A DNA stretch of 64,000 bases from a bacterium (GTDB lineage: Bacteria > Armatimonadota > Zipacnadia > Zipacnadales > UBA11051). The DNA lies in NCBI GenBank assembly GCA_030604405.1, contig JAUVVY010000009.1:1-64000 (forward strand), given 5' to 3'. Numbering within the stretch: the stretch's first letter is position 1; every line of letters begins with the position of its first letter. Shown piece by piece: positions 2,322 through 45,061 of the stretch. Position numbers and translations under genes: made by a program. Below the pieces are notes generated by a model that did no database searches, was not told where the DNA came from, and saw only the letters and a list, made by a program, of their open reading frames with translations.

Positions 2322-3524
2322 CTACATCAGGTCGAGGCAGGCGAGTGCTTGCTTGTTGCGGATGATGAGCTTGCCGTCGGCGATAATCGGGGCGGTCCAG
2401 CTCTGGCCGCCGAGCGGCTTTACGCGGCCCAACTCCTGGTACCCCTCGTGCGAGGCCGTCACCATCACCACATCGCCGTTCTTATCGTTCATCACGATGA
2501 GCACGCCGTCCACGGCGACGATGCCGCCCTTCTGAAAGCCGGGCTGTTGCCACATCGCCGTGCCGTTGCCCGAGTGCAGACAAACCAGGTGCCCCGTGTC
2601 GCTGGTGCCATAGACGTAGCCGTAGTAGATCGGCACGCCGAAGTGAGATATGATGAGCTTGTTGGACCACACCACGTCAGGGCCCTGCGGGGTGATCTCG
2701 ACCAAAGCGCACCCGTGTCCGTAGCCGCTGGTTATGAAGATGAAATTTCCGCCCACAATCGGCATTGCAGCGTTGACGTCGTGTTTCGTTCTCCATACAA
2801 CACGCCAGAGCAGCTTGCCAGTGGCGGCTTCAACGCCGATCAGGCTCACGCCGGTAAAGACGACGTACTGCTTCTGGCCGTGTAGCGTGGCGACTACCGG
2901 GGTGGCATAGCCGGAAATGTCGCTACCTCCACCGGTCCAAATGGTTTCGCCGGTTTGCTTGTTGAGGGCAGCAACGCTGGCGCCGCTGCCGCCGGGGCAG
3001 ACGATAAGCTTCTCCCCATCCACCAGCGGCGACATCGCGTAGTCCCACTTGGGGCGCTGTCCGCCGAACTCGGCCTGGATATTGCGAGACCAGATCTTCT
3101 CACCGGTCTCGGCGTTGAGGCAGTGCAGAAGTCCCAGACGGCTGAGGGTGTAAAGCCGCCCCGCATCAAAGACAGGCGTAGCGCGAGCGAAGCCGTAGAG
3201 ATACTTCTGAGTATCCGGATAGCTGAAACTCCAGACCTCATCACCGGTTCCCAGGTCCAGGGCCTTGACAATGTCGTTGGCGCCCTCGTGGTCAATGATG
3301 AAAACCTTGCCATCGGCAACTGAGGGGCCGGCGTAGCCGTTATCGCCCAACGGCGCCTGCCAGAGCACTTGCGGCGGCTTCTGCGCCCAATTCTTATTGA
3401 TGCCCTGGTCGGGAGCGACGCCGTTCGCATTCGGGCCCATGAACGCAGGCCAATCGTCGGCGAAGGCACTGAGGCTCAACAAGAGACAGATCACTGCGAG
3501 AGGCAAGCTAGTCGTACGAATCAT
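2322..3524 (-). CDS. Secreted PQQ-like (BamB-type) beta-propeller repeat protein
   Basis: Signal peptide MIRTTSLPLAVICLLLSLSAFA; repeated 'ALDLGTGDEVW', 'LNAETGEKIW', 'LNKQTGETIW', 'VEAATGKLLW'. Confidence 0.9.
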   Translation of the reverse strand: MIRTTSLPLAVICLLLSLSAFADDWPAFMGPNANGVAPDQGINKNWAQKPPQVLWQAPLGDNGYAGPSVADGKVFIIDHEGANDIVKALDLGTGDEVWSFSYPDTQKYLYGFARATPVFDAGRLYTLSRLGLLHCLNAETGEKIWSRNIQAEFGGQRPKWDYAMSPLVDGEKLIVCPGGSGASVAALNKQTGETIWTGGGSDISGYATPVVATLHGQKQYVVFTGVSLIGVEAATGKLLWRVVWRTKHDVNAAMPIVGGNFIFITSGYGHGCALVEITPQGPDVVWSNKLIISHFGVPIYYGYVYGTSDTGHLVCLHSGNGTAMWQQPGFQKGGIVAVDGVLIVMNDKNGDVVMVTASHEGYQELGRVKPLGGQSWTAPIIADGKLIIRNKQALACLDLM

Positions 3525-3570
3525 AAATGCACCTCTGCTGTTGGTATTCCGTCCACTTATCTCAAGGTCA

Positions 3571-3770: not shown

Positions 3771-4904
3771 CTAGCGCCCGAAACAGTATATCGCGCCGTC
3801 AGTGCTGCCGATTACCAGCCGTCCATGACCGACGGCCGGGGAAGCCGTGATCGCCGCACCTGCACTGAATTGCCAGACCTTCTGCCCGCTCGCAAGATAG
3901 ACGGCGTAGATGTTACCATCGTCGCATCCGAAGAAAACTCTATTTCCGGCGATTACCGGAGAGGAGTCCACGGCGTCGCCGGCGGTGAAGACCCACTTTG
4001 TGCCACCAGTTGCGCGGTCGAGCCGGAAGACGGTGTGATTGCGGGAGGCGAAGATGACGGCATCATCCAGGACGGCGGCGGAGGCGTAAGTGGCCCCGCC
4101 ATTCTTCCTGACCACAGCCTGCCACAGAATCTTGCCGTCGCTGAGGCGCACGGAAGCATACTCGCCGCCCATGCTACCGACGAACACAGACCCCGAACCG
4201 TAAGCCGGCGACGCTGCGAAGTTGGCGCCTATGTCCGCAGATGCCTTCTGCCTGCCGGTCCGCAGATCAATCATCCGCACCATCCCGTCGCAGCCCGCTA
4301 TCACGGCCACGCCGGAGACCACGCATGGGGAGCAGTGCATCTGAGCGTCGGACTTGAAGCTCCAGATCTCAGCGCCCGTGTCGGCATCGAGCTTGTACAG
4401 GCAGTTGTCGTAAGAGCCTACGAACACGGCGCCCGGCGTAGGAGTGGCCGATGACATAATCTTGTCGCTGGTCGTGAACTTCCACAACTGGCGACCTGTT
4501 GTGGCGTTGACCGCGTAAAAGGCGCCGCCCTCGTCTCCGATGTAAACGGTGTTGCCGACCACGCACGGCGAGGCGCTGATGGCGTCGCCCGCCAGAAACT
4601 TCCACTTCAGCGTGCCATCAGTTATTCGCAGTGCCAGCAGGGCATTGGTCATGGTGCCGACATAGACGGTATCACCGACGATGGCGGCCGTGGATTCGAT
4701 TGACGAGCCCGTTTCATAGGTCCACAGCAGCCGGGGACTGTCAGTGAAGGGGGAATGAACGGCCCCCGTCATCTCAGGGCCGCCGCGGAAGCACGCCCAG
4801 TCCGGCTCCGGCGGCACGCCAATCGCCGCACCAGCCAGGGCGTAGCAGAGCCCAAGCATTGCGATTCTGAGCACCATGTACGTTTTCTCTCGCGGGTCGC
4901 TCAT
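3771..4904 (-). CDS. Secreted PQQ-like beta-propeller repeat protein
   Basis: Repeats 'LDADTGAEIWSF', 'LDRATGGTKWVF', 'YLASGQKVWQF'; start at 4904 supported by upstream AGGAG; signal-like MVLRIAMLGLCYALAGAAIG. Confidence 0.88.
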   Translation of the reverse strand: MSDPREKTYMVLRIAMLGLCYALAGAAIGVPPEPDWACFRGGPEMTGAVHSPFTDSPRLLWTYETGSSIESTAAIVGDTVYVGTMTNALLALRITDGTLKWKFLAGDAISASPCVVGNTVYIGDEGGAFYAVNATTGRQLWKFTTSDKIMSSATPTPGAVFVGSYDNCLYKLDADTGAEIWSFKSDAQMHCSPCVVSGVAVIAGCDGMVRMIDLRTGRQKASADIGANFAASPAYGSGSVFVGSMGGEYASVRLSDGKILWQAVVRKNGGATYASAAVLDDAVIFASRNHTVFRLDRATGGTKWVFTAGDAVDSSPVIAGNRVFFGCDDGNIYAVYLASGQKVWQFSAGAAITASPAVGHGRLVIGSTDGAIYCFGR

Positions 4905-4915
4905 CAAGAGTACTC

Positions 4916-7900
4916 CTACTCTTGCCTCAAAGCCGAGATCACAGTGCCACGTACCGCGCTGTGCACCGCGATCACGCAACTTACCAGCCCAAATAGTAAT
5001 ATACCCACTAAGACGCCGATTAGAACCTGCCAGTTCATTTGCGATTCGGCGGAGGCCAGGTGCGGGGCGACCGCGACCAGGGCTGAGACAGTGCCGCAGG
5101 CCAGGCCGGCTACCAGCAAGCCACCGTTTTCAAGCAGCAGCAGGCGGGCGAGTCTGGGTCGGCAAAAGCCGGTTGCCAGCATCAGTGCCAGCTCGCGACG
5201 GCGTTCGAAGGCGCTGCGCAAGAGTACCGTGACCAGGCCAACCGTACCCAGGAGCAGCCCCAGGCTACCGAGGGCCAGGAACATCGCCAGATAGGTGTTC
5301 TGTACCTGCATGAACTCGTTGAGCACTTCGCGTGTGGTGCGGACTTGCAGGCCCATGTCGCCGAGGTTCTTGCGCAGTATCTGTGCCACCTGTTGCTCGC
5401 GGCCTGCAGGCGTATCAATCAGGAAATAGCTGGGGGAGGTGATCGCAGGGAAGAGGCTGCGGAAGTTCTTCTCGGATACCAGTAACTCGCGCTGAAAGAT
5501 GCTGCCGGGGAGCAGGCCCACGAAGCGGAGCTTGGTCAGAGTTCCGTCCGTCCCGGGCATCTCATAGGTCTGCCCCAGACCCGAATGCAAGGTCCACCTC
5601 ACACTGCCAGAGTCGCCGAACGTCGGAATTGCGCCGTCCGCAGCGGGCAGTCCGAACAGGTTTCCCCAGGGCTTTCCAGAGAAGCTGTAGCTGGGTGTCA
5701 TCGCAAAACCGCCGCGCAGCATCATATCCGGGGGAACCCCCAGCAGTCGGGGATAGGTGGGCCGGGCGAGATTGAGACAACTGATGTCTTCGCCCGGGCT
5801 GGCCAGGAATGACATGACCCCTACGCCCTCGAAGGCGGCCTCATCTTCAGGTGAGAAGCCGAGGTTGGCGCGACCAGCCGGGGTGCCGAGGTCGAAGGGC
5901 AGCGGAACCGATGAGGTGGCCTGCAGCTCGAAGCCGCCGGTGCCGGAATCCTTGCGTGTGACATCGGTCTGGGAGAAATCCCGCGTGTTGGCAGCTACGG
6001 CCACGATAATGAAAGTGGCGCTCGCCAGCAGACCGATTACCAGCAGGCTACGGCTGCTACTGGCTGCTGCGTTTCGCAGCGATAGCCGCAGTAGCGAGCG
6101 GCTGGCGGGCGTGATACGCAGGGCTCGTGCCAGGATCAGACTGAATGCCGCCAGCGCAGCGCAAAGCAACGCGGCGCCGATGCCGAAAAAGGCTGCCTGA
6201 GAGGGAATCGCATCGGTGCAGATCGAGAGCAGGCCCAGGGCTCCCGCGACCGTGAGCAGTGCGACCAGAGAGATCGCCGCAAGCCGCTGCCGCGGACGGG
6301 CCGGAGAGACCGCCATGGCCTGCTGGCCCGCAAGCAGATCTAACACCTGCAGCCGCCCCAGCCGTCGGGTGCTCCACGCCACCGTGAGAAGGCCGATCGC
6401 CAGGCCGGAAACTGCACCCACCAGCAGGCTGCCGGCAGTGAAGTGCAGCCACAGGGAAGAGGTGGCACCCAAAGCGTCACTCCACCAGTTGCCCAAGGCG
6501 CTGATGATGCCCGCCGCGTACAGCAGACCGGCTGGGACGCCCACGAGCGTGCCCAGCACAGTGAGTACTGCTCCCTCTGCAAAGAGCGCGCGACCAACGA
6601 GCTTTGGCGGCGTGCCGGTGGCCAGCATAATGCCGGCCTGCGAAGCGCGTCTGTCAATTGAAAGCCGCAGGAGCATTCCGCCCAGCCCCGCTCCCGACAG
6701 CACCAGGAACATGCTCAGGCCCAGGAATAGCTGGCCGAAATCCGAGGTGCCGCGGGAGGCCTCCAGCGCCAACTCGCGCACAGGACGGAACGCCAGCCTC
6801 GACTGCCCCGGCCTGATACGCCGTAGCAGGGCGGGGGTGAAAGCCTTTTGCAGCGCCGAGAGACTGGTTCCCTCAGGCGGTGCGATGCGCACTGATGTCA
6901 CCCAGTCGGCATCGGGGCTACTGGAATGCCATATCGATTCCGTCGAGAGGAGGCTGACGAAGGCCTTCGGCGTCGCGCGGTACTTGTCCCAGTACTCCTC
7001 GTCGCGGTCGGTAATGCGGCTCAGATCCACGGGGAACGGCGGATCCCATTCGTCAACACGGATGGCATCGGTAATACCTTCGAAGTCGGGCACCAGTTCA
7101 CGGTCTGCCGCGGGCCCATGCATCTCAACGATAGCTCCCACTTCGAGTTCTATATTCGCAGTCGGGTAAGTCCCGTCTTCGGTCGCCATCATATAAGTGA
7201 GGCGGAGGCGGTCGCCGACCTCGGCCTTGAGGTCCTCAGCCGCCCAGGTATTGAGCCAGACCTGCTCATGTCCCGGAGTTTCCCCCGTCCCCTCGCGGAA
7301 TACAAACGGCTCCAGCGGCTCGAGGCCGGCAATCATGGCGTAGGACAATTGCTTACCACGTCGGCTGTCCACGTGGGCGATGGTCGTTGCCAGATAGACT
7401 GAGGCGATGGCACTTTGGGCGTGGCAATCCCCGGCAGCCTGACGGGCGGCCCGAATTTGCGCGTCAGTCAGCACTGTGGCGTCGCTTATCAGTGATAGGT
7501 AGTTGCGCTTTGGATTTGTGACTAGCTTGAGACGGTGGTCGGCGAGCGTGCAACTCTCTGCCAGGGCGGAGGTCAGCGCATCGGCGGCCCGGTCGCGTGC
7601 CTGGGGCTTGGACGCCGAGAGCAGCACGTTGACCAGGCCCTGCTTGCTCAGACGGGACGCCAGCCACTGCCGAGAGATGAAAATGTTTCGTGGCGTGGTG
7701 CTCTGGGCATCAAGGCGGAAATCGCCGGCACCACCCGCGGGCAGGACCGACTTCACCTGCAGCCGTATCGAGGGCGCAATGTCCTGCTTTCCCCGTCGGG
7801 CAAACAGCGTGTCGGAGGAGATGGCACTCTGCCGGTGCGTGGTCAGCAATAGGTAATCGCCCTCTGTCAGGCCCAGGTCGCGGGCCAGAGCGGCGTTGAC

Positions 7901-32002: not shown

Positions 32003-33430
32003 TCAACACCTGATGTCGAATTGGTCTCTTATTCTCCTGTCCACGTCCTCGGCAAATCCGGGCGGCTCGGTGCTTGCGATGATGTGCAACGCCTTGGCCC
32101 GCGCCACCGCAACGATATTCGGCCTACCCTCCGCCTGCCATTGCGCTCGGCTACCTCGATTGCTCAGCGTCGGATTGTAGATCTCGCTTCGCATCCTATC
32201 CAGCGTCAGCTCATCCGTCAAGTAGTTGCCTCCCGGGCCGACACGCCTGATGCTTTCCACTGCCAGTGCCTCTTCACTGGTATCTATGCCCTCGACGCAG
32301 CGCCTGGCCATACCCAGGATCTCGTTGTCAATCACGTACTGCTCGTACGAAATCGTTGACATTGCTTCCAGCATTCCGGCCGAGTGATGAATGTAGTTGG
32401 CCCCGGCCAGGGCGGCTTGCAGCACCGAGAACGCCTTCTCGTAGCCTGCCTGTATGTCGCTGCATTTGCTCTCGGTCAGCCCGGCGGAGTTATATATCGG
32501 CAGCCCGTAAAACTGCGCCATCTGCGCCGCGGCCGCATTCAGCATCCCAAACTCCGGCCCGCCGCCAAGGTACGAGCCATCGCGGAGATTGGACATCGAA
32601 GGCACCGCGCCGTAAAGCGCCTTCGCCCCGGGCCTGGCCGCTTGCGCAAGGACCATTCCTGAAAGCAGTTCCGCGTTGCTCTGCACGAGCGTACCGGCCA
32701 GTGTCATCGGCGAGGTTGTCCCCGCCATCGGCGCTGTTGACATCACCACCGGCATGTCGTGCTCAATGGCCCGCAGCAGCAACTCGGTACTGTGCGGGTC
32801 AATCCGCAGCGGCGACACCATCCAGCAGCAGATGAACGAGACGAAGGGCCGTTCGCGCAGCTTCTCCCTGGCCCCCGCGACGATCGAGCCCAGCTCCACC
32901 ACCTGCTTCATCCCCGCAGCGTCATTTACTCCGGACATCACATGCTTGGTGGTGTTGTAGAGGGCGGCATAGTATTTGTTGACATCAGCCAATTGTGAAG
33001 GCAGGTCCTGCGGTTCGGTCGGGCGCACGAAGAAGTCAATGTAATCGAGGTTGTCAACCAGCAGCGCCAGTCGCGCAATATCCGCAAGCCGGCCGCTGCG
33101 CACCTGGTCGGTTTCCGGATCCACGACATTCAAAGCCGCGCCGCCTGTGCCCATGTGCACGCGCGTGCCGCCCAGGCGCAGGTCATGCTTCGCATCTCGC
33201 CCGCACAGGGTCACCTCTTTCGGTGCTTTCGCAAGCGCCGCTGCAACGGTCTGGCCAGCGATGTACACGCGTCCGCCCTCTATCCGCGCGCCTGCCTCTT
33301 GAAAGAGTGCCAGCGCCTCCGGGTGCCCGCACACGATTCCCACCTCGGCCAGCACCTGCAGTGAAGCCTCGTGTATCGCCTCAATGCCGTCTTCAGAAAG
33401 CGGGCGGTAGGTCGGCTTTTTCATGCTCAT
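32003..33430 (-). CDS. Trimethylamine methyltransferase (MttB) superfamily protein, non-pyrrolysine type
   Basis: IHEASLQVLAEVGI...MGTGGAALNVVDPETDQVRSGRLADIARLALLVD...GGGPEFGMLNAAAAQMAQFYGLP; uninterrupted ORF with no in-frame amber; start MSMKK at 33430. Confidence 0.85.
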   Translation of the reverse strand: MSMKKPTYRPLSEDGIEAIHEASLQVLAEVGIVCGHPEALALFQEAGARIEGGRVYIAGQTVAAALAKAPKEVTLCGRDAKHDLRLGGTRVHMGTGGAALNVVDPETDQVRSGRLADIARLALLVDNLDYIDFFVRPTEPQDLPSQLADVNKYYAALYNTTKHVMSGVNDAAGMKQVVELGSIVAGAREKLRERPFVSFICCWMVSPLRIDPHSTELLLRAIEHDMPVVMSTAPMAGTTSPMTLAGTLVQSNAELLSGMVLAQAARPGAKALYGAVPSMSNLRDGSYLGGGPEFGMLNAAAAQMAQFYGLPIYNSAGLTESKCSDIQAGYEKAFSVLQAALAGANYIHHSAGMLEAMSTISYEQYVIDNEILGMARRCVEGIDTSEEALAVESIRRVGPGGNYLTDELTLDRMRSEIYNPTLSNRGSRAQWQAEGRPNIVAVARAKALHIIASTEPPGFAEDVDRRIRDQFDIRC

Positions 33431-33490
33431 TTGCCTCGGCTTTGGATTATTTGTTTTGGGGTCTTTGGGCTCCAGGCAGTATAATATCCT

Positions 33491-35746
33491 GTGCGCGATT
33501 GCATGTCTATACGAGGCAATCTTAATCAACACGGGAAACCGTACTTCGCGGTGAACGAGTATATGTGCAGCTTACTTTCCAAGTTATTGTGTGCTGTTCT
33601 GTTGGTCATCGTTCTGATGACGAGCGCCACACTTGGCGCTTGCCAGCCGCCGGACAACTACGCCGCGGCCGCCAACGGAGCGACCATCACAGGGCCACAA
33701 AACGCATCCGGCAGCCACGGCCGGCCAAACTGTGTTATTGATGGCGAGGTAGTGGACTACGGCTCGCATCGCGGTTATGCCTGGGCTGATCTGGAGGTCC
33801 CGACCATCATCACATTCGCTCGCCCCGCCGTCATTGATACCGTGGAGGTGATTTTGCTAGACACATCGCTGCGCACCTTCTGCTACATTGTGAGCGTCTC
33901 GGCCGATGGCGAGCAATGGCGGCAGGTGGCCGACACCTCCGACACGCCGGTTTCCGGCTGGCGCATGCTTCAGTTTCCTCCTGTGGAGGCGAGGTACTTG
34001 CGGCTAGATTTCACAGCCACTTCGCTGTCGTCCGGTAGCTACCACCTGGTCGAAGTCGGCGCATTTCACCTCGGTGATAGCCGCAAAGCGGGCCCACTCG
34101 GTCAGGCCTGGCAGCACGCCCGCGTCCAAAGACATATAGCCGAGGCTGCTCTGCTCGCAGTTGCGCCTGCCCAGGCCGCACTACGGGACCCCGGCCTGTT
34201 CGGCCAACTGAAATCGGCGCCCGACAACCAGCCGATCCATCGCGACCTGTCTGACGGTACCCAGGCCCTGTTCTATCGCGATAAGGGCGCTATTATCGTC
34301 GCAATAGATGACGATGGCAACATGTCGGCCGCTGACAAAGGCCCCGACGGTATCAACGATTGCCTGGCCGTGGACATGAATGCCGATGGCCGCCTGGACC
34401 GCACCATTGACTACTCCGACACCAGCGGCGACGGCGTGGCCGACACTATGGTGCAGACCTACCTTTACGGAAGCACCTGGGGCAACCGGCCGTTCATGGT
34501 GGTGATCCGCGATTTCGATACCGGCCCGCTGAGCCTGTGGTACCTGCACAACTACGGCTACTGGCAGAGGGAGTGCCAGTGGCAGTGCGATTTTGCCGGC
34601 GATGGCTATTTCGCGATGTTTAAGCGCGATAGTGCTCAGAAGCGCTGGGTTGCCCACTTCGAGTCGCCGTTCTGTTTCTACGACCCCGATGGCGACGGTT
34701 TGCCCGAAGAAACTGTGCGCATAACGGCAAGCGACACTCTTCTGCGCACGCTCCGCTTCAGCATCAACGCCGACAATGACACCACCGAAGGCCAGCTTTA
34801 CGACTACGACGTCGGCATCACCTGTCTGGGAAATGTGCAGTTGCAACCGGACGTAGCTGACACCTTCACCACAAGGAGCGGCGAGGAGACAGGCGAGTTT
34901 CTGAGCTGGGACAAAGCGCGGCAGACTGTACGGGAGATGGACTGGTCGCGGGCGCTTCTGATCTGGGACGAAAACGATCACAATGTAGCGCCCAGAGCAC
35001 CCCAACACGAGCGTTGGGAGGGCATCCTCAACGCGCGCTACCGTCGCTTTCCGCAGGTAGGTGGCCCGCACTGCGGCACGCTCAATAAGCGTTATGAACT
35101 CGACGCCGACTTCTCCGGGCGGATGCGGCTTTACTACTGGCCCGCCGACGGCCGCCTGCATCTCTACGGCGCCGAGGTCGGTACGCTCGAGGTTGACTTC
35201 GACTACAACGGTCGCACCGACATGATAGTCCAGTACAGCGATAGCGATGGCGACGGCTTCTTTGACAGGCGCGAGATAGAATATAGGGCTTTGCGTTTGC
35301 CGGCTCGCAATATCGTCGGCCCAAAAATCTACTGCCCGCCTGCCTCTGATTCACCCGAACCCGTTACGATCCCCTACAGCTACAACGAGGTCGCCGCTTT
35401 CTGGCCGCAAGCCCTTGCCGATCGCATCGCAGACAGCGGCGCACTGCTCAAAGCCCTGTCGGAGTTCGCCAACCGCGCGCAGATGGAGCTTTCGGCCAGG
35501 CCGCTGGATTTCTATGAAAATGCCACGGCTGAGCAGTTCGCATACATCGAGCGGCTTCGGTCAAGCAGGGAAGCCGGCCGCTACTACCAGGACATCGCCA
35601 TCGAATTCGCCTTCGCCCAATTGATAGCCGCTGCCGAAAAGGGCGCTGATGACGAGCTGGCTACGCGGCTGAACCGGGCGCGGCGACACTATGATCGCGG
35701 CCGGCTTATTGAGGCCGCCAAAGCTCTCAATTCCTCAGTGCGCTAG
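33491..35746 (+). CDS. Exported protein with N-terminal discoidin-like (F5/8 type C) domain and several DxDxDG-type calcium loops
   Basis: Discoidin-like SHGRPNCVIDGEVVDYGSHRGYAWADLEVP...VEARYLRLDFTA; loops DMNADGRLD, DTSGDGVAD, DPDGDGLPE, DSDGDGFFD. Exact start uncertain. Confidence 0.75.
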   Translation: MRDCMSIRGNLNQHGKPYFAVNEYMCSLLSKLLCAVLLVIVLMTSATLGACQPPDNYAAAANGATITGPQNASGSHGRPNCVIDGEVVDYGSHRGYAWADLEVPTIITFARPAVIDTVEVILLDTSLRTFCYIVSVSADGEQWRQVADTSDTPVSGWRMLQFPPVEARYLRLDFTATSLSSGSYHLVEVGAFHLGDSRKAGPLGQAWQHARVQRHIAEAALLAVAPAQAALRDPGLFGQLKSAPDNQPIHRDLSDGTQALFYRDKGAIIVAIDDDGNMSAADKGPDGINDCLAVDMNADGRLDRTIDYSDTSGDGVADTMVQTYLYGSTWGNRPFMVVIRDFDTGPLSLWYLHNYGYWQRECQWQCDFAGDGYFAMFKRDSAQKRWVAHFESPFCFYDPDGDGLPEETVRITASDTLLRTLRFSINADNDTTEGQLYDYDVGITCLGNVQLQPDVADTFTTRSGEETGEFLSWDKARQTVREMDWSRALLIWDENDHNVAPRAPQHERWEGILNARYRRFPQVGGPHCGTLNKRYELDADFSGRMRLYYWPADGRLHLYGAEVGTLEVDFDYNGRTDMIVQYSDSDGDGFFDRREIEYRALRLPARNIVGPKIYCPPASDSPEPVTIPYSYNEVAAFWPQALADRIADSGALLKALSEFANRAQMELSARPLDFYENATAEQFAYIERLRSSREAGRYYQDIAIEFAFAQLIAAAEKGADDELATRLNRARRHYDRGRLIEAAKALNSSVR

Positions 35747-43981: not shown

Positions 43982-43995
43982 CTGCGCCGTTTCGT

Positions 43996-44023
43996 TTGAC
44001 AACGTCGGACTATGTGGTATAAT
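43996..44023 (+). promoter_or_regulatory. Perfect-consensus sigma70-type promoter
   Basis: TTGACA (43996-44001)-N16-TATAAT (44018-44023) with extended TGG immediately before the -10. Confidence 0.8.
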
Positions 44024-44029
44024 GTATTT

Positions 44030-44098
44030 GGTGATCTGAACCTCGGCTCATCCGGGTATTAGGATCCCTCCGGGCAGCGCAAGCTGCCCTTTCTTTTT
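44030..44098 (+). ncRNA. Candidate ~70-nt small RNA
   Basis: Starts about 7 nt after the consensus -10 and ends in the GGGCAGC-GCAA-GCTGCCC-TTTCTTTTT terminator; no ORF of meaningful length between. Confidence 0.6.
44072..44098 (+). terminator. Rho-independent terminator
   Basis: 7-bp perfect stem GGGCAGC/GCTGCCC, GCAA loop, T-rich tail on the + strand only. Confidence 0.85.
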
Positions 44099-44100
44099 GG

Positions 44101-44868
44101 TCATATGCGAACGAAGCCTCTGGGGTCAGATGAGGAAGCTGCCGTGCAGAATATTGGCTGCAGCCTGTTGCAGTAGTTGTGCCCTGCCTTCTTCTTCATG
44201 TACGGATTTGGTGACAACTCCTGATAGACCAGGTATGCAGCCAGGTCCGCCGCCTGGATGAAGTATGAATGTGCCGAGTCTCGGAAATTCGGGTCCTCTA
44301 TGATTCGTTGAACTGTGAGATTTCGGGATCCGGGGCCGAACTGACGCTGGTGCGGTACTGGATTCCAGTGACGCATCTTGCGCAGAAGGACGGTCAGTTT
44401 CTTGTCATCAGTATGGTCAGGAAACAGCATTCCACGCTCGTCAGGATTGGCCGGGCCCCTGAAGTTGCGATGGGACAACGTGTTCTCGAAGCGTTGCAGC
44501 AGAGCGCGCCAAGCGATCCCAAAGACATTGTAATCCGCGGCCTTGTTGGTTTTGTCCACGATGATCGTAATGAGATTGAGGTCGGCCAGCCCGGCCAGGC
44601 AATCGGCGAACTCCCGGATGATGGCCAAGCGATCGTATTTCTTAATCGCCACCAGTTTTCCTGGCCGACTTATCAGGTCGCCAGCGTGTAGCTCGTCCCG
44701 AACGCCGAGGCCAAACTTCGACTTGATCCCGCGACGGAAATCAATCAGCGTATGGAGCGCATCCTGCCACCTGAGTTCGTGAATGACCAGCCCAGTTAGA
44801 ACGAAGTAGTCGGTGGGTGAACCGACGAGGCCACAGTCGCCGCTTTCGTCAACGTACATCACATACAT
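44101..44868 (-). CDS. DUF3800 domain-containing protein
   Basis: N-terminal MYVMYVDESGDCGLVGSPTDYFVLTGLVI; C-terminal SYFIQAADLAAYLVYQ. Confidence 0.88.
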   Translation of the reverse strand: MYVMYVDESGDCGLVGSPTDYFVLTGLVIHELRWQDALHTLIDFRRGIKSKFGLGVRDELHAGDLISRPGKLVAIKKYDRLAIIREFADCLAGLADLNLITIIVDKTNKAADYNVFGIAWRALLQRFENTLSHRNFRGPANPDERGMLFPDHTDDKKLTVLLRKMRHWNPVPHQRQFGPGSRNLTVQRIIEDPNFRDSAHSYFIQAADLAAYLVYQELSPNPYMKKKAGHNYCNRLQPIFCTAASSSDPRGFVRI

Positions 44869-45061
44869 GGTCCGATGCACACACCTTCCGTCGAAGCCGG
44901 GCAGTGTAGCTACCCAGCAAACACTGTGGCCCGTGCGCAGATTGGGGTCCCGCTACAGGGCTTCCGGCCCCACCAATAACCGCGTGGGCGGCACGGGTGG
45001 TCTCGTGAACAGGGTAGCACTTATTGCTACCGGGCACAATCCGAATTCGCAGCGAATGGAA

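Follow-up and report, generated by a model that had tools for sequence, protein, structure and literature searches.

A conserved small RNA convergent with a DUF3800 gene in Armatimonadota as a candidate regulator of a predicted RNase-HII-like protein

Some Type I toxin–antitoxin pairs, such as txpA/ratA, have a convergent antisense RNA. Structured non-coding RNAs are also associated with genes for DUF3800 proteins, and have so far been catalogued as unexplained motifs. Where PMC10910872 touches on these RNAs it credits them to Weinberg et al. 2017, and two of them, DUF3800-I (RF02969) and DUF3800-IX (RF02968), are named in the Rfam 15 paper. DUF3800 proteins occur in type V-A2 and VI-F CRISPR loci (PMC10910872, PMC12669027), and an RNase H fold had been predicted for them earlier (PMC10910872). 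A Legionella Tn-seq study (PMC7811196) scored one DUF3800 gene as essential, alongside several antitoxins. An essential DUF3800 is hard to reconcile with a plain toxin role, which is a reason for caution.

Here we analyse a locus in a 64,000-nt stretch of DNA from an Armatimonadota bacterium (the window), in which an earlier note had proposed a small RNA (sRNA) tied to a neighbouring B12 riboswitch operon. We propose, with a probability of about 0.6, that this RNA is one half of a DUF3800 RNA–nuclease module, probably bound by the protein and acting as an antitoxin-like regulator of the nuclease.

The small RNA gene and its fold

The sRNA promoter consists of a −35 element TTGACA (43996–44001), a 16-nt spacer and a −10 element TATAAT (44018–44023) extended by a TGG, exactly as the earlier note had described it (Table 1). 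It is also the strongest promoter in the window, as had been claimed, being the sole 12/12 consensus match ahead of a runner-up at 10/12; a scan of 60 mononucleotide shuffles gave no 12/12 match. The opposite-facing riboswitch promoter (TTGCAA...TAAACT, − strand) lies about 15 bp away, the distance given previously. The 5′ end of the sRNA was placed by inference from the promoter. Between 43954 and 44100 neither strand has a listed ORF of 60 aa or more, which bears out the proposed ORF-free stretch of about 70 nt. The hairpin with a T tract reported on the same strand is present as a terminator stem (44072–44078/44083–44089) followed by TTTCTTTTT up to 44098. Two-sided changes affect four of the seven stem pairs. 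The sRNA is present once in the genome, and recognisable promoters (8–11 of 12 positions matching) occupy the equivalent position in six bacterial homologues.

The 69-nt transcript folds at −29.6 kcal/mol (z −3.4 against shuffles). The small stems suggested by the earlier note do pair, not as several stems but as one hairpin in which helices P1 and P2 enclose an internal loop. In a structure-blind alignment of 14 sequences, pairing-preserving two-sided changes were found in 7 of 11 helix pairs, a count matched by 0 of 500 shuffles, and slid versions reached at most 2; in a model-fitted alignment of 21 sequences, 9 of 11 pairs covary, again equalled by 0 of 500 shuffles. The internal loop (UGAA/UAGUAG) scarcely varies among the 14 sequences, and the window copy is one loop base off the consensus (AUUA versus AGUA). 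A constant loop inside variable helices is the pattern expected of a protein-binding RNA, which singles out the loop as the likely binding site. The GAA/AGUA letters are similar to those of the loop-E (sarcin–ricin) motif, a resemblance in sequence only.

Covariation and homologues in other families with their own promoter and terminator thus support the candidate non-coding transcript of the earlier note as a putative sRNA. That there is no sRNA, and a chance promoter happens to precede a readthrough terminator, is hardly credible in view of the cross-family homology, the covariation and the conserved architecture.

Table 1 Coordinates of features of the locus and of RNA copies on viral contigs
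Feature	Position	Strand	Evidence or remark
Segment with the sRNA/DUF3800 pair, missing from the otherwise collinear G005 locus	43986..45060	.	G005 homology ends at 43986 and restarts near 45059
sRNA promoter, TTGACA-N16-TATAAT, TGG 5′ of −10	43996..44023	+	12/12 consensus match
sRNA gene (putative)	44029..44098	+	homologues in G006, G268, G051, G225, G050; covariation
Helix P1, 5′ strand	44030..44036	+	A-U/G-C and other two-sided changes
Internal loop, 5′ strand (UGAAC)	44037..44041	+	nearly invariant, n = 14 sequences
Helix P2, 5′ strand	44042..44046	+	two-sided changes
Helix P2, 3′ strand	44052..44056	+	two-sided changes
Internal loop, 3′ strand (UAUUAG in window, UAGUAG in most relatives)	44057..44062	+	nearly invariant
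Helix P1, 3′ strand, then C-rich linker	44063..44068	+	two-sided changes in the alignment
Intrinsic terminator of sRNA	44072..44098	+	stem pairs covary; U-tract ends 2 nt from DUF3800 stop codon
DUF3800 gene, convergent partner	44101..44880	-	PF12686 E 3.6e-18; GTG start 44880 or ATG 44868
Conserved stretch 5′ of DUF3800 (− strand), its candidate promoter/operator	44979..45060	.	about 88% identity in G006
Solitary viral RNA copy	L059 1375-1411
Solitary viral RNA copy	L076 533-578
Solitary viral RNA copy	L077 4282-4327
Solitary viral RNA copy	L078 170-215
Solitary viral RNA copy	L079 323-368
Solitary viral RNA copy	L081 3993-4038
Solitary viral RNA copy	L083 983-1028

Distribution of the RNA and its DUF3800 partner

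Within the genus, G006 is the only other genome that keeps the RNA (90% identity over 116 bases; sRNA 94%, sRNA promoter region 86%), with the riboswitch beside it. Its locus has no intact DUF3800 gene; apparent terminal codons (GFVRI, stop) still adjoin the sRNA, and an NYN-domain gene occupies the place of DUF3800. A cassette with variable cargo, DUF3800 or NYN between conserved ends, was considered and set aside, loss of DUF3800 in G006 being the simpler reading. In a third genome, G005, the btuF–riboswitch locus is collinear with the window and about 92% identical, and the sRNA and DUF3800 segment is missing. The patterns in G005 and G006 indicate that the sRNA/DUF3800 unit is lost or kept separately from the B12 operon.

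Several further features of these loci are recorded here as observations. The conserved segment upstream of DUF3800 holds an inverted repeat, GGTAGCA-N5-TGCTACC, that overlaps the candidate DUF3800 promoter, and this segment is also conserved in G006, there upstream of the NYN gene. The G006 locus is rearranged (L004 3449–6089), with a duplicate of the riboswitch 5′ part at 5961–6045 and the trpB terminator at 3518–3564 and 6043–6089. Three genomes have an NYN-domain gene close to the RNA (L004 2561–3301, L048 2423–3079, L052 2443–3192), and the NYN proteins of G006 and G051 match PADLOC family HEC-09. The surroundings of the RNA in the G050/G051 family (L048, L052, L053) share recurrent repeats of about 200 bp (about 85–91% identical) and DUF6338 genes, possibly mobile elements.

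The earlier note had proposed a covariance search in relatives. With a covariance model of the window and G006 RNAs alone and no protein information, homologues over the full length were recovered from three distant families of Armatimonadota (G268, E 1e-16; G051, 2e-14; G225, 4e-13). As in the window, the RNA in all three is convergent to a DUF3800 gene and ends a few bases from the stop codon of that gene. A DUF3800 protein search of 291 genomes of the phylum found 61–66% identity in no other genomes than these three. G050 has a weaker, more divergent RNA match, again facing a DUF3800 gene, itself a divergent one (PF12686 E 8e-6), and G051 has a second RNA copy that has lost its terminator and has no adjoining DUF3800. 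By eye, more distant DUF3800 genes of the phylum (31–38% identity; G230, G042, G029, G037) have a promoter and a hairpin of other sequence at the equivalent place, in most cases with a T-rich terminator, and DUF3800 genes of Rhodococcus and Streptomyces plasmids have a hairpin and terminator there. Weak matches in G094, G096, G092, G285 and G254 were discarded as terminator resemblance that vanishes with the hairpin model; a Deinococcus plasmid match and low-identity phage and plasmid BLAST matches were attributed to chance, which also seems to account for exact-pattern matches in Bacteroidales, Desulfogranum and Prochlorococcus.

The conserved partner of the RNA is DUF3800 and not the B12 genes; the earlier note had brought up DUF3800 only as a source of readthrough. 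The suggested tie to the riboswitch operon is not supported. A role of the sRNA in regulating btuF or other B12 genes would suit the cobalamin riboswitch that adjoins it in the window and in G006; yet these are the only two loci, both in one genus, with a B12-gene neighbourhood, no cobalamin riboswitch lies near the RNA in G268, G051 or G225 (the window is alone in having one among the four intact close DUF3800 pairs), and G005 retains riboswitch and btuF without the sRNA. We regard such a role as very improbable.

The association also holds in reverse. Viral contigs searched with the DUF3800 protein alone yielded 17 viral or prophage loci, and a scan of their full 62 kb, both strands, with the hairpin model (R2) gave ten RNA matches (E 9e-13 to 0.03; seven at E ≤5e-5), every one antisense to the DUF3800 gene and just past its stop codon. 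By eye, several of the remaining loci have a comparable CUGA...GUAGG hairpin. An antisense terminator whose U-tract ends at most 9 nt from the stop codon accompanies 27 of 31 DUF3800 genes, a count that takes in the DUF3800-VIII locus through its internal hairpin rather than a clear terminator. Shuffles predict 3.0 of 31 for the terminator alone, and 7 of 165 other long ORFs have one within the same distance. These two-way tests reveal a placement of the RNA terminator relative to the DUF3800 stop codon that is regular at the level of bases, and the RNA is very probably the partner of DUF3800 in one module.

The protein is about 255 aa long, and D7, E59, D151 and D208 (numbered from ATG 44868) are invariant or nearly so in the alignment. 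An AlphaFold2 model from a 16-sequence alignment reached pLDDT 91, and its top PDB matches are RNase HII structures (2dff, E 3e-4; 1uax, 6e-4; probability 1.00), with modest TM-scores of 0.37–0.49 that place the match at the level of fold class. The model, consistent with the earlier RNase H-fold prediction, points to a putative RNase-HII-like nuclease. DUF3800 is the only Pfam domain found in the protein, and no ToxN/AbiQ-type toxin domain was found. PADLOC did not recognise the window's own DUF3800; a second, related DUF3800 protein in G268 matches the phage-defence candidate PDC-M04A (E 6e-24).

Proposed role and solitary viral copies

We suggest that the strong promoter would yield an abundant structured sRNA of about 70 nt whose hairpin binds DUF3800 through the UGAA/UAGUAG loop. 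The abundant RNA would most likely restrain the RNase-HII-like nuclease in the fashion of an RNA antitoxin, and the module may be a mobile defence or selfish unit. Convergent transcription would also give the DUF3800 mRNA a 3′ end complementary to the sRNA, so that the sRNA could lower DUF3800 expression as well. The module itself is well supported, the RNA co-occurring with DUF3800 across bacteria, plasmids and prophages; we infer the direction of control, and put inhibition of the DUF3800 protein as the main role of the sRNA a little short of even odds.

A counterpoint to a module is that the RNA can exist without DUF3800. Pattern scans of viral contigs placed it in seven records (Table 1), and in all seven the helix positions that the pattern left free also form the expected pairs. 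None of these records, which are possibly fragments, gave a PF12686 match. One of them, L079, is clearly phage (portal and head genes), and L059 is the only one with a good promoter at the usual place. Other matches were rejected as apparently coding and without the matching fold (L057, L058, L060, L061, L080, L084, L085) or as doubtful (L082). The solitary RNAs may be decoys, and other roles are possible.

How else might RNA and protein be related? The RNA could be a cofactor or guide that activates DUF3800 as an RNA-guided or RNA-activated nuclease, a reading that the predicted RNase-HII-like fold, the presence of DUF3800 proteins in type V-A2 and VI-F CRISPR loci (PMC10910872, PMC12669027) and the RNA's own strong promoter would favour. 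We think it unlikely, as the RNA is short and has no variable guide-like segment; its helices vary while keeping their pairing, and its loop is constant. Nor do the viral copies without DUF3800 sit well with a mainly cis-acting element, whether an antisense to the DUF3800 3′ untranslated region or convergent transcription and a terminator that limit DUF3800 expression. The abutting of terminator and stop codon and the strong promoter pointed at DUF3800 fit such an element, but antisense needs no conserved fold and here two helices covary around a constant loop, making it distinctly unlikely.

The roles could also be inverted, with a harmful RNA that the DUF3800 nuclease destroys or neutralises. 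The essential Legionella gene listed among antitoxins (PMC7811196) and, once more, the predicted fold speak for this; the Legionella case is, however, one report on an unspecified DUF3800 protein, and both G006 and the second G051 locus keep the RNA without an intact adjoining DUF3800. We judge it quite improbable and prefer the RNA as an antitoxin-like regulator.

Comparison with known systems

Structured RNAs adjoining a DUF3800 gene, the shared trait of the Rfam RNAs DUF3800-I to -XI, are found in the window, in G268, G051, G225 and G050 and at the viral loci. The RNA studied here and its relatives have no match to any Rfam model; in particular, cmscan placed no DUF3800 model at the RNA in the window (to E 10) or at this RNA in L047, L059, L062–L079 and L096–L112 (relatives covered to E 1–10). 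Near matches to BjrC68, isrD and PinT fall far under their gathering scores and mainly reflect the terminator. Elsewhere in the window, a PYLIS_3 match (32380–32479, − strand; 40.2 bits, cut-off 38) lies inside an ORF (32003–33532) resembling an MttB-type methyltransferase. In G268, DUF3800-VIII (RF03075) follows a TTGACA-N16-TATAAT promoter, is convergent to a DUF3800 gene of its own and overlaps the 3′ end of that gene; in G275 it is convergent to a DUF3800-like ORF. A control search also gave a DUF3800-VIII match in laboratory Bacillus subtilis. The two G268 modules stand in tandem, the DUF3800-VIII RNA (L047 4681–4745, +) and its DUF3800 gene (4732–5589, −) directly beside the first pair.

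As in Type III toxin–antitoxin systems (ToxIN), a small structured RNA here accompanies a nuclease gene, in our case a predicted one, on mobile DNA, and the viral copies recall the pseudo-ToxI of phage PhiTE (PMC3475682). Unlike the tandem, upstream, cotranscribed repeats of Type III, the present RNA is convergent, downstream and single-copy with its own promoter and terminator, and its partner is predicted to be RNase-HII-like, no ToxN/AbiQ-type protein having been found. Extending the analogy, DUF3800 and its convergent RNA would form a defence or selfish module in which the RNA controls an RNase-HII-like nuclease. The solitary viral RNAs would be decoys, binding or silencing that nuclease in the way PhiTE counters ToxIN. 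We hold this only tentatively and think it doubtful; if true, separate DUF3800 RNA motifs would form one superfamily with a common GAA/GUAG internal loop.

The Type I pair txpA/ratA resembles the locus in having an RNA that converges on the 3′ end of the protein gene. The differences are that the protein here, at about 255 aa, looks like an enzyme and that the fold and the constant loop of the RNA are maintained. Closest in position is DUF3800-VIII, likewise convergent at the 3′ end of DUF3800, whose hairpin contains CGAA and GUAG in an internal loop, a GAA/GUAG similarity seen by eye only; the present RNA differs in its helices, its separate terminator hairpin and its solitary viral copies. 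On these sequence comparisons it is best read as a new class of DUF3800-associated RNA, a kind already known though unexplained, and the locus, with a predicted RNase-HII-like partner and solitary viral copies, makes the role of such RNAs directly testable.
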